Positions 7,280 to 9,768 of a stretch of DNA of 20,094 nt are shown here, one piece after another. The position numbers and the translations under genes are program-made. Within the stretch, counting starts at the first letter, position 1. Each line of letters begins with the position of its first letter. The notes under the pieces are model-generated. The model saw only the letters and a list, made by a program, of their open reading frames with translations. It was not told where the DNA came from and made no database searches. This stretch comes from a virus, in IMG/VR virus record IMGVR_UViG_3300024520_000611, positions 1-20,094 of that record. One strand, 5' to 3'.

Positions 7280-7732
7280 TTACTTCCATTGATGATAACC
7301 TTCGTTATCTTTTATTAAGGACTCTTTCCTATTCTTACCAGATAAAAATGAACAATGAATCCAACCTGAATTAATATCACTTTCATCATAATATTCAAGT
7401 ATCAGTTGGTCAAAGTCAAAATTGTTTTTAATGTGTGAGGCCACTTGTTTGTTATCATAACCTGGAATTTCAAAATCACAAGCTGCACCGTTGTTAGCAC
7501 AATGCTGAGAATTAGAACTAGATCCTAGTTTCTCACATAATTTTGGAGAACGATAGCAAGAAGTTATTTTAAGAGGAGCTTCGTAGTAGTCCCTTAAAGG
7601 TTGAAGAATATTTTTAACAAGTTCTTCTATGTTTTGAATTTGTAAATCGTTTGGAGAATTATCTATATGATTTCTTAATGCCGTTTGGCTTTGCGTCATT
7701 TCTTTTAATGTAAAGTTTTGACTGAGTTTCAT
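7280..7732 (-). CDS. Peptidase M15 endolysin (L-Ala-D-Glu or D-Ala-D-Ala type)
   Basis: This 150-residue single-domain protein is a zinc peptidase of the M15A family. It has the SxHxxGxAxDF motif as NSQHCANNGAACDF (His77, Asp86) and the WxH motif as GWIHCSF (His126); these three residues bind zinc. CYRSP (59-63) is the usual CxYRS/T-x-P strand. It has no signal peptide, so release needs the holin. It cuts peptide bonds in the cell-wall peptidoglycan for host lysis. The neighbours (holin, lipoprotein and small membrane proteins) confirm a lysis block. Confidence 0.9.
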   Translation of the reverse strand: MKLSQNFTLKEMTQSQTALRNHIDNSPNDLQIQNIEELVKNILQPLRDYYEAPLKITSCYRSPKLCEKLGSSSNSQHCANNGAACDFEIPGYDNKQVASHIKNNFDFDQLILEYYDESDINSGWIHCSFLSGKNRKESLIKDNEGYHQWK

Positions 7733-7734
7733 AA

Positions 7735-7962
7735 TTATAAATCTACTTCTTCTTTTTTAATTTTTTTGCAAAAGAATTTAATATAAGTTTTATTTTCATT
7801 AACATAATCAGCTCCCATTAAATCCATAACTCCTAAAGATTCAACATATCCCTGCCTCATGCAAGAATCCCAATCTGAAAAATTTATATTTTGTTTTTCC
7901 CATCCTCTATCGCACTCCCCATTTACTGCGGAGCATATAATTAAAACTAAAATTATTTTCAT
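7735..7962 (-). CDS. Small exported Cys protein (75 aa)
   Basis: The N-terminus (MKIILVLIICSAVNGECDRG) is a short signal peptide; cleavage after SAVNG or a nearby residue would export the protein. Three further features follow: a DxDSCMRQGY segment, a hydrophobic stretch VMDLMGADYV, and KFFCKK near the end, so the mature form probably has Cys pairs that form disulfides in the periplasm. Similar small exported proteins occur in marine phages with no known role. It lies directly upstream of the endolysin, suggesting a part in envelope disruption. The 86-residue protein at 9129-9389 has a similar layout. Confidence 0.6.
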   Translation of the reverse strand: MKIILVLIICSAVNGECDRGWEKQNINFSDWDSCMRQGYVESLGVMDLMGADYVNENKTYIKFFCKKIKKEEVDL

Positions 7963-7971
7963 TATTCATTG

Positions 7972-8184
7972 TTATCCACCTTTACTTTTTTTTATTTTTT
8001 CTTCAAGCTCCTTAACTTTTTCTGTAGTTTGTTCTAAATCCTTTTGGCAATACTCTAGTTTTTGTAAGCACCTTTTGTTAGCTGCGTCTTTAGACTTACC
8101 TGCGTCTTGCAGTTCAGCTACTTCCTGTTTAAGTATTCGGATTTGATCCTTATACTCATTTACCAAATCTAAGTTATCTGACAT
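7972..8184 (-). CDS. Small coiled-coil protein of the lysis block (70 aa)
   Basis: Almost the entire sequence is a heptad-patterned helix (LVNEYKDQIRILKQEVAELQ, then YCQKDLEQTTEKVKELEEK) with two internal Cys that could cross-link. There is no membrane segment, so it does not fit a normal inner-membrane spanin, yet its place between holin and endolysin resembles that of Rz-like proteins. It starts straight after the holin stop. It might pair with an exported partner or modulate the holin; both are inference. Confidence 0.6.
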   Translation of the reverse strand: MSDNLDLVNEYKDQIRILKQEVAELQDAGKSKDAANKRCLQKLEYCQKDLEQTTEKVKELEEKIKKSKGG

Positions 8185-8568
8185 CTATTTTTTATTATTA
8201 CGAAAAATCTGAGTTCCTTTAATGCCAAAAATACTTGCACAAACTAGAATCCATAAATTTGTAAACCAGGTCGGAAGTGCTGCAAAATGTTCAAAAAACA
8301 TTTTTATCTTTTCCATAGCTTCAGGATCGTCTGACCAGACTCCCCATGCCAAAATTATTATAGGCAATGTGAGGATCGCCAAAACTACCTCATCCTTATA
8401 GTCGTTCTGTCTAGCCTCTAATAGTTTGCCTTGATATTCTGTTTCGCCTTTAGCCATTTTGGTAGCTGCCATGTGTTGAGCATCTGCCATAGCCATTTGA
8501 GTTTCTTTACGCTTTTTATAAATATGCGTACCTGCATTTAAAGCTAATTTGATTGCACTAAACCACAT
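8185..8568 (-). CDS. Holin, GTA-type 3TM-holin-like
   Basis: The 127-residue protein has a cytoplasmic helical N-terminal part (KKRKETQMAMADAQHMAATK) and two clear membrane segments: about 61-78 (VVLAILTLPIIILAWGVW) and about 101-117 (WFTNLWILVCASIFGIK), with a basic end. The KETQ..ADA..(A)..K...DE order before the first segment is what I recall of the PF11351 family, the holin used for release of gene-transfer agents, which is common in alphaproteobacterial phages. It forms lesions in the inner membrane so the endolysin can reach the wall. It follows the 21-residue peptide by three bases. Confidence 0.75.
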   Translation of the reverse strand: MWFSAIKLALNAGTHIYKKRKETQMAMADAQHMAATKMAKGETEYQGKLLEARQNDYKDEVVLAILTLPIIILAWGVWSDDPEAMEKIKMFFEHFAALPTWFTNLWILVCASIFGIKGTQIFRNNKK

Positions 8569-8571
8569 AAG

Positions 8572-8637
8572 TTATTTATCCAAACCTTTGCATAGCCAGT
8601 CAGTAATTTTCTTAAATAGTTTTTTAAACCATTTCAT
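8572..8637 (-). CDS. Amphipathic cationic micro-peptide (21 aa)
   Basis: AAGGAG stands seven bases before ATG 8637 and the stop lies three bases before the holin start. The 21 residues begin MKWFKKLFKKITDWLCKG. Trp3, Phe4, Leu7, Phe8, Ile11, Trp14, Leu15 and Leu19 fall on one face of a helix and lysines on the other, the pattern of membrane-active peptides. The strong ribosome site makes translation likely. It may bind or destabilise the inner membrane with the holin. Confidence 0.7.
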   Translation of the reverse strand: MKWFKKLFKKITDWLCKGLDK

Positions 8638-8659
8638 AGCAAACTCCTTCTTGTTAAAA

Positions 8660-8815
8660 TTAATTGCAATTATTTTTGTGTAAATCGGCTGGAATATCTT
8701 TTGTAAACCAAACCCAACTTGAAATTTTAGTACCCTCTTGGGTATAGGTACATTTATGTCCTATAGAACATCCTGATATAATTAAGAATACTATTAGTAA
8801 TAGTATTTTTTTCAT
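8660..8815 (-). CDS. Small lipoprotein (51 aa)
   Basis: GAGGAG precedes ATG 8815. A type II signal peptide (MKKILLLIVFLIISGC) has a lipobox ISGC with Cys16 as the lipidated residue, so the mature protein has only 36 residues, with three further Cys residues at 22 and near the end. The size and place in the lysis block suggest an outer-membrane lipoprotein of the Rz1/o-spanin kind, but it is not proline-rich, so this is tentative. It could alternatively act in superinfection exclusion. Confidence 0.75.
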   Translation of the reverse strand: MKKILLLIVFLIISGCSIGHKCTYTQEGTKISSWVWFTKDIPADLHKNNCN

Positions 8816-8828
8816 AGTTTCTCCTCTA

Positions 8829-8939
8829 TTAAAGTATGTATAGAATAAAACCTATAGTAATTACTATAATTGCTTTAGTTCTAAAACTTCTTTGTTCCCA
8901 AAGCAATACAATTTTATCACTTAAATCTGGTAATGTCAT
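8829..8939 (-). CDS. Tiny tail-anchored membrane peptide (36 aa)
   Basis: ATG 8939 is preceded by AAAGG about 11 bases away and the stop abuts the ribosome site of the lipoprotein gene. It starts MTLPDLSDKIVLLWEQRSFR, then TK and a single C-terminal membrane segment (AIIVITIGFILYIL). The N-terminal part is predicted cytoplasmic. Function is unknown; it may regulate holin timing. Confidence 0.55.
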   Translation of the reverse strand: MTLPDLSDKIVLLWEQRSFRTKAIIVITIGFILYIL

Positions 8940-8955
8940 AATATATTATACCTTT

Positions 8956-9129
8956 TTATTGGCAAGATTCACACTCATTAGTGTCGTCTATAACCAATCC
9001 TCCGTTAGTTTCATAGCTTTTATCTTCTTCTTTTTGTCCACAAATACAACCATCGCATTTACAACCTTCATGGTCTGCTTCAATACAATGGCATAAATGA
9101 TTACATTTTTTACAAAATCTTTCAGTCAT
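8956..9129 (-). CDS. Cys-rich metal-binding-like protein (57 aa)
   Basis: The ATG at 9129 shares a base with the upstream stop (TAATG), the tightest coupling possible. Ten of 57 residues are Cys: FCKKC, LCHC, CKCDGCIC (nearly alternating) and a final CESC. This could bind two or more zinc ions or an iron-sulfur cluster; the layout is not a standard zinc finger. The middle (EEDKSYETNGGLVIDDTN) is acidic. No signal peptide is present, so it is cytoplasmic. I recognise no family. Confidence 0.65.
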   Translation of the reverse strand: MTERFCKKCNHLCHCIEADHEGCKCDGCICGQKEEDKSYETNGGLVIDDTNECESCQ

Positions 9130-9389
9130 TATTTTGTATATCCTGTTGAATCGTATTTATCTTTAATGATTTTAACTACTCTCATTTTATCGCTGTATTC
9201 GTCTTTCTCTATGATGGCTGTAACTTCTCCACAAGCCATTCTTACATTTTGAGGATTTACCGATCTCTCAACTTGGCGCTTTGCTTTAAGACATGAACTC
9301 ATCTTTTGATCTTGAATATAAGTATGCTCAATAATTCCACCTTGATAAAACATACATAAAACTATTACTCCACTAATTATGGTTTCCAT
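9129..9389 (-). CDS. Small membrane-anchored or exported Cys protein (86 aa)
   Basis: The N-terminal hydrophobic segment (IISGVIVLCMFYQGGI) is a membrane anchor or signal peptide. The rest is polar, with a Cys pair about 20 residues apart (SSCLKAK and VRMACGE), probably a disulfide in the periplasm. The order (anchor, C-x7-9-V/Y-x2-S, then a second Cys) resembles the protein at 7735-7962, suggesting two distant paralogues. The start lies in the last 17 bases of the upstream gene. It is coupled downstream to the Cys-rich gene by TAATG. Confidence 0.55.
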   Translation of the reverse strand: METIISGVIVLCMFYQGGIIEHTYIQDQKMSSCLKAKRQVERSVNPQNVRMACGEVTAIIEKDEYSDKMRVVKIIKDKYDSTGYTK

Positions 9390-9768
9390 TTTGCCTCACT
9401 TTATCTTTTAATTTTTCAATATCATTTAATATTTTTTCTACATCTTTTTGTATTCTTATAATATTAACTGCGTTGTGTCTTGATTCTTTAATTTCTAATT
9501 GAATATATTCTACATCAGTTAATAAACTTTCTATTAAAAGAAATTGCTCTGAATCTGCTGGAAGTAAACCTAATTCTCCTCTAGGCCATTTGATTGAAAA
9601 TTCAACTGCTTGGTCTAAATCTTTTTTAATTAATGTGTTGTCAGTTTCTAATGTATTTAGTCTTTCAATAACACCAAAATAAGCCCATACCCCAATACCA
9701 ACTGCTGCCAAAATTGACAGTAGGTTACGCATAGGCATAGAAATTGCTGTATTATCTGATACTCTCAT
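9373..9768 (-). CDS. Membrane-anchored coiled-coil protein (131 aa)
   Basis: A short polar start is followed by one membrane helix (about 15-33, LLSILAAVGIGVWAYFGVI) and a long coiled coil, ending in a charged tail (NDIEKLKDKVRQNGNHN). The segment DSEQFLLIESL is one I recall from marine phage proteins of this shape. The topology is like an inner-membrane spanin with its coil in the periplasm, so it could pair with the lipoprotein at 8660-8815. This pairing is inference. The start overlaps the upstream 41-residue gene as ATGA. Confidence 0.6.
   Translation of the reverse strand: MRVSDNTAISMPMRNLLSILAAVGIGVWAYFGVIERLNTLETDNTLIKKDLDQAVEFSIKWPRGELGLLPADSEQFLLIESLLTDVEYIQLEIKESRHNAVNIIRIQKDVEKILNDIEKLKDKVRQNGNHN

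Follow-up and report, generated by a model that had tools for sequence, protein, structure and literature searches.

The window (the whole stretch of DNA analysed, 20,094 nucleotides, positions 1 to 20,094 of IMG/VR virus record IMGVR_UViG_3300024520_000611) carries on its minus strand, at 8572..8637, a gene for a 21-residue amphipathic, cationic peptide, here called PEP, which, judged from its sequence, is a genuine microprotein gene in a late envelope/lysis module. The most likely reading is that its product would be a cytoplasmic-face amphipathic membrane helix of that module (probability roughly 0.45), because this fits the make-up of the peptide, the module in which the gene lies and the precedent of the disruptin of phage phiKT.

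The reading frame of PEP runs from an ATG through 21 codons to a TAA stop and encodes MKWFKKLFKKITDWLCKGLDK; it was recovered from the ORF list and by the family profile, with a whole-record profile match of 4.0e-10. Its Shine-Dalgarno sequence AAGGAG (8644..8649, minus strand) lies 6 bases 5' of the ATG and has an anti-SD pairing energy of -8.3 kcal/mol, compared with -3.1 kcal/mol for the downstream gene, a homologue of phrog_2524, whose start follows the PEP stop after exactly 3 bases (TAA-CTT-ATG). The ORF, the strong and well-spaced AAGGAG and the 3-base gap had all been reported in the first-pass annotation of this DNA and were read from the sequence as claimed. The same annotation had described a helix with hydrophobic and cationic faces, and the computed values agree: the mean hydrophobic moment is 0.67 (z = 3.9 against shuffles of the peptide itself, 0 of 2000 being as high), the best 18-residue moment 0.71 and the net charge +5. 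In its make-up PEP is a predicted cationic amphipathic helix rich in Trp, Phe and Tyr, and among the family members tested for amphipathicity 3 of 32 failed to beat 90% of their own shuffles.

An iterated profile recovered 137 short ORFs at E<1e-3 from 38,523 short ORFs in 405 sequences (404 fetched viral loci and the window), and none from composition-shuffled peptides; some contigs are present under two or three locus identifiers (L085/L246/L426; L086/L245/L424), so that locus counts exceed contig counts. Family members are mostly 19-27 residues long and share the rough pattern K-K-x-W-K-K-[YF]-x-[DE]-W-[LF]-[FW]-K-D-[FY]-Y. The closest relatives, L085 and L086, have peptides 100% and 90% identical to that of the window, and when whole records were searched with the profile, 12 of them, the window included, each had a single match at E<1e-9. 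IMG/VR was also scanned for motifs without regard to neighbouring genes. The motif WLFKDFY occurred in 81 stretches, and 77 of the 80 examined (L325-L404; the 81st, L405, is outside the motif-ORF and gene-order counts) were short ORFs, i.e., ORFs ending no more than 15 codons from the first codon of the motif. For a second pattern, WFWKD[FY]Y, there were 44 stretches, with 38 short ORFs by the same measure and 37 of them family-like, and a pattern taken from the C-terminus of the window's peptide gave three, two of which are the L085 and L086 contigs. In genome_contigs, WLFKDFY was found in 75 stretches, 15 of them in short ORFs and one a family member (L494, a MAG contig).

The ratio pN/pS, obtained by simple pairwise counts at high synonymous divergence and therefore approximate, was 0.30 over codons 2-13, which lie outside the searched motif, and 0.19 over codons 5-13 (14 distinct 21-codon sequences); over codons 2-19 of five distinct sequences, from loci fetched by their neighbouring genes, it was 0.12. 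By these ratios, purifying selection acts on the amino-acid sequence of PEP across several of its gene orders. A chance ORF with no function might be suspected in a frame so short, with no match in Pfam, a best E of 0.076 in PHROGs (where variants of PEP were also without a convincing match) and no tblastn match of PEP and two variants in the phages collection, a search that masks low-complexity sequence. We rejected this explanation as hardly credible in view of the conservation (137 ORFs against 0 shuffled peptides; pN/pS about 0.1-0.3), the motif scans, the conserved gene order and the strong matches in the 12 whole records. In 21 named phage records searched whole with the family profile (18 isolates, two fosmid-derived uncultured genomes and phage 023Pt_psg01), PEP was found in none at E<=1; the same profile matched the PEP-bearing records given to it as a positive control.

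The genes around PEP in the window lie on the same strand in the order phrog_20984, phrog_24646, Cys57, TM36, LP51, PEP, phrog_2524, a 70-aa coiled coil, phrog_19893 and M15 endolysin. The phrog_20984 homologue (9373..9768; PHROGs) has an N-terminal hydrophobic segment and then a long helical-looking part and is i-spanin-like, by layout only, and the phrog_24646 homologue (9129..9389, 86 aa; PHROGs E 5.5e-8) also has an N-terminal hydrophobic segment. Cys57 (8956..9129), recognised by profile and gene order, is a Cys/His-rich, probably metal-binding protein of 57 aa, and is separated from PEP by 319 bases. Between them are TM36 (8829..8939), a 36-aa product in the ORF list with a single hydrophobic membrane-type segment, and LP51 (8660..8815), a 51-aa lipoprotein predicted by a lipobox scan, both co-inherited with PEP by their identity to relatives. 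On the other side of PEP follow the phrog_2524 protein (8185..8568; 127 aa, predicted two-TM, weak SD), the 70-aa coiled-coil-like protein (7972..8184; from its sequence), the phrog_19893 homologue, a probable exported protein (7735..7962; PHROGs E 4.9e-15), and the M15 peptidase endolysin (7280..7732; Pfam PF08291 4.8e-15; phrog_894 endolysin 9.7e-38). The layout of TM36 (window 8829-8939(-); also L407:5-127), a polar N-terminus with one hydrophobic segment at the end, recalls the 40-aa MIIYGY...LWVM proteins of cultured pelagiphages. In phage T7 the holin gene 17.5 and the spanin genes 18.5/18.7 lie near the maturases, a layout which the gene order of the module may resemble.

The first-pass annotation had called the neighbour of PEP the holin, an assignment that needs correcting: no holin model of Pfam, PHROGs or NCBIfam recognises the protein, whose one match is phrog_2524 (E 6e-30), a family of unknown function. 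Its topology and position, and these only, suggest a holin-like protein. Two helices of membrane type appear in the predicted structure, a model of low confidence (pLDDT 64.5), and identification by fold was abandoned, the model being poor and the fold search made with it returning no structural match. In several isolates the phrog_2524 gene overlaps or abuts endolysin genes, and the phrog_2524 protein of the window matches 28 phage records, 26 of which are Pelagibacter phages. A weak similarity of phrog_2524 proteins (window 8185-8568(-); L420:601-975) to Oxa1-type insertases was also seen, the best match being EMC3/TMCO1 (E 5e-4), followed by YidC (E 0.002), both below cut-offs.

The first-pass annotation would have been refuted by the lack of a conserved amphipathic peptide at this place in relatives; PEP is conserved there, often directly 5' of phrog_2524. 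The 3' neighbour of the 77 WLFKDFY ORFs was phrog_2524 in 39, phrog_20984 in 17, Cys57 in 14, phrog_24646 in one and unrecognised in five, with too little sequence (under 150 bases downstream) in one; the gap between PEP and the phrog_2524 ATG in those 39 was 3 bases in 28, 2 in 8 and 5 in 3. Next to the 38 WFWKD[FY]Y ORFs the 3' gene was Cys57 in 33 and unrecognised in three (too little sequence, by the same limit, in two), and their 5' neighbour was DNA polymerase A, named from reading its sequence, in 25 and a 217-aa protein in nine; in this DNA-polymerase/Cys57 gene order PEP adjoins neither phrog_2524 nor the endolysin. PEP is therefore found in three settings, of which two belong to the phrog_2524/phrog_20984 region. 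Neighbours of PEP in L333 and others (cluster c16) and in L345 and others (cluster c33) include proteins that are SET-domain-like and Hsp20-type-chaperone-like by sequence reading. In the 80 loci closest by phrog_2524 sequence (a few with short upstream sequence) PEP stood beside phrog_2524 in none, and because phrog_2524 loci without PEP are common, PEP is not essential to the module. Most of these PEP-less loci (L001-L080) have another coupled small gene, of 46-82 aa, with its stop 1 base 5' of the phrog_2524 start and its product often ending in ...VTWY or ...KWF.

Where PEP does precede phrog_2524, the two are probably translated by coupling and made together. In 44 coupled loci the median anti-SD energy was -8.2 kcal/mol for PEP and +0.45 for phrog_2524, compared with a median of -3.1 over 70 phrog_2524-type starts of PEP-less loci (collected with a loose motif, at least one non-start included), some of which have strong sites (e.g., L006, L008). 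Since phrog_2524 is without a good SD of its own, ribosomes probably reach it through the PEP ORF. In phrog_2524-coupled loci (L325, L330, L353 and others) PEP keeps its C-terminal codons, TTC AAA GAC TTT TAT, nearly unchanged. The unusual codons TTC and GAC are kept in 11 of 13 distinct phrog_2524-coupled sequences (in the genes nearby they make up 11% of Phe codons and 21% of Asp codons, respectively), which may reflect common ancestry or a signal in the RNA that serves coupling. It could be argued that the short ORF is a translational leader that loads ribosomes for an SD-less downstream gene and that its peptide product is incidental, as the strong SD of PEP and the lack of one for phrog_2524 in the 44 coupled loci, the gap of always 2, 3 or 5 bases, the better SDs of PEP-less phrog_2524 starts and the possible RNA-level constraint on the end codons would all allow. 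We regard this as unlikely, because the PEP sequence is conserved 5' of three unrelated genes with pN/pS of 0.1-0.3, and its length and amphipathicity are kept although a leader would not need them.

In the contigs of L085 and L086 (ids L426/L424) the identity to the window is 100/100% for Cys57, 97/94% for TM36, 100/96% for LP51, 100/90% for PEP and 87/89% for the endolysin, but only 37/52% for phrog_2524, the identity break falling between PEP and phrog_2524. On these values PEP is inherited together with Cys57, TM36 and LP51 in the window lineage, whereas the adjacent phrog_2524 has been swapped. In a phrog_2524 tree (52 of 137 rows kept after near-copies were removed) the state "PEP directly upstream" needs five changes, of which branches with good support require at least two, and the window falls beside L001 and L052 (97/84), both without PEP. 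The break and the tree therefore indicate that PEP is not tied to one phrog_2524 lineage. The tie to an adjacent "holin" drawn by the first-pass annotation thus survives only in part: PEP often lies directly 5' of phrog_2524, but phrog_2524 is swapped, and elsewhere PEP stands before phrog_20984 or Cys57. The same data bear on the idea that PEP regulates phrog_2524, antiholin-like or as a trigger, by direct binding at the membrane in a ratio fixed by coupled translation. The probable coupling and the adjacency in 39 of the 77 loci would agree with such a regulator, which we nevertheless think improbable, the same peptide being found beside phrog_2524 proteins 37% and 52% identical to that of the window and other genes adjoining PEP elsewhere.

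Cultured pelagiphages have a small protein, named MIDK here, with an amphipathic start and a basic tail, 32-74 aa long in the proteins compared and often with a Cys-rich C-terminus. The MIDK profile matched 15 of the 21 named phage records, which serve as its positive, and the profile of the MID[KR] amphipathic N-terminus matched none of 24 IMG/VR records including the window, 13 of which match PEP (G012 only weakly). PEP and MIDK occurred in the same record in 0 of 45 (probability 0.0016 if independent); as the records are related and partly chosen for PEP, this is no more than suggestive of mutual exclusion. MIDK (e.g., HTVC200P gp47, HTVC106P gp36) is like PEP in being short, with an amphipathic N-terminal helix and a basic tail. 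In HTVC200P, where endolysin (lysozyme), phrog_2524, MIDK and phrog_20984 lie side by side, it sits between phrog_2524 and phrog_20984, which is the place of PEP in the phrog_2524-peptide-phrog_20984 order of L345 and L370. The two differ in sequence, however, and with an hhalign probability of 18% homology of their helices is not demonstrable. In five PEP-less loci (L001, L052, L057, L065 and L082, the last being isolate HTVC106P) MIDK is fused to a C-terminal Cys/His domain that the Cys57 profile recognises. The fusion links a predicted amphipathic helix to the Cys domain; in the WFWKD[FY]Y group the two are separate neighbouring genes. Cys57 was present in 14 of 57 motif-found PEP loci of at least 6 kb, compared with 5 of 37 PEP-less phrog_2524 loci of at least 4.5 kb, and the pairing of PEP with Cys57 is far from general. 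Mini-proteins of the Cys57 type are widespread in marine viruses (190 loci; window 8956-9129(-), L052:536-760), with a pattern of about CKxCxCxCHCxxxxHxDxYGxCxCxxC and often a separate ECExCQ tail at the end; the three sequences tried had no Pfam match.

The main rival to the membrane-helix reading, and one compatible with it, is built on this fusion: the main job of PEP would be to tether the probably metal-binding Cys57 to the inner membrane, for a target that need not be lysis, with PEP and Cys57 as the split counterpart of the MIDK-Cys fusion found in other pelagiphages. We hold it to be a real but tentative possibility. Among motif-found PEP ORFs, 33 of 38 in one group and 14 of 77 in the other are followed by Cys57, five PEP-less loci fuse an amphipathic N-terminus to the same Cys domain, the block Cys57-TM36-LP51-PEP stays 90-100% identical in the window lineage while phrog_2524 is exchanged, and the phrog_2524 tree groups the window with L001 and L052, the carriers of the fused form. 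On the other hand, 39 of the 77 motif-found peptides precede phrog_2524 instead, most long PEP contigs of the WLFKDFY group are without a recognisable Cys57 nearby, the helix homology between PEP and MIDK stands at an hhalign probability of 18%, and in the window itself Cys57 is 319 bases from PEP. It is conceivable, with long odds against it, that PEP and Cys57 are the halves of a split membrane sensor in which PEP would anchor a metal- or redox-sensitive domain that sets when phrog_2524 opens the membrane; if so, SAR11 viruses would possess a novel type of lysis clock, in a fused (MIDK-Cys) or a split form (PEP and Cys57).

For the membrane-helix reading, the nearest precedent is gp28 (56 aa) of Escherichia phage phiKT, which we take to be the disruptin of that phage. 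Like the predicted helix of PEP it is small, cationic and amphipathic (charge +7 and best 18-residue moment 0.68, against +5 and 0.71 for PEP), and its gene, ORF28, follows the endolysin gene and directly precedes the holin gene, as PEP directly precedes phrog_2524, which is holin-like by layout only, near the M15 endolysin. It differs in having 56 residues against 21, the conserved acidic/aromatic C-terminal motif being a feature of PEP, and the window, unlike the disruptin case, carries a lipoprotein (LP51). No sequence similarity was found between PEP and phiKT gp28 (family-profile score 2.2 bits), and by sequence PEP falls outside the disruptin family; the two are analogous, not homologous. 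The absence of spanins was dropped as an argument for a disruptin. None of the 27 motif-found PEP contigs with at least 2 kb on both sides had a lipobox ORF on the gene strand within 4 kb, but the window has LP51; a looser scan gave hits in 26 of 79 motif-found loci (searched on both strands; some of the hits are LP51 and several seem spurious) and in 0 of 62 PEP-less phrog_2524 loci (gene strand only). Because PEP-less loci are also without lipoproteins, the absence is not linked to PEP and cannot serve as such an argument. The first-pass annotation had suggested that the peptide might trigger or assist lysis in a way that is not part of the usual holin/endolysin/spanin scheme; this would not be unprecedented, the phiKT disruptin being a known case outside that scheme (Holt et al. 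2022, cited in PMC12819732). A second comparison is the Mu releasin gp25, which acts on a SAR endolysin and resembles PEP as a membrane-associated accessory of the lysis region outside the holin/endolysin/spanin set; it differs in its 99 aa and true transmembrane segment, and the endolysin in the window is an M15 peptidase (PMC9239132). PEP showed no homology to any known lysis protein in PHROGs or to phiKT gp28.

In the mechanism that we propose, PEP would form a helix lying flat against the inner membrane on its cytoplasmic side and help the late membrane proteins phrog_2524 and phrog_20984 to destabilise the envelope. It could do so through its own effect in disturbing the bilayer, or, after the inner membrane has been opened, it could reach the outer membrane in the manner of the phiKT disruptin. 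PEP may also serve as a detached membrane anchor of Cys57, because it adjoins Cys57 in many relatives and a fused helix-Cys protein occurs in PEP-less pelagiphages. The conserved acidic and aromatic positions (WLFKDFYK), however, show more specificity than disruption of a bilayer would call for and could be a protein-binding motif.

SAR11 bacteria are among the most abundant bacteria of the ocean. In the open-access literature searched there was no account of host lysis by SAR11 phages, and four sequence words of the PEP family were absent from it. PEP represents a conserved family of tiny genes, too short for the usual gene callers, in viruses related to those of SAR11 and usually beside presumed lysis genes. 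The family allows a concrete and cheap test of a lysis role for stand-alone amphipathic phage peptides other than the well-studied disruptin. It also marks a slot for a small gene, filled by PEP or MIDK, that is open to study in cultured pelagiphages.
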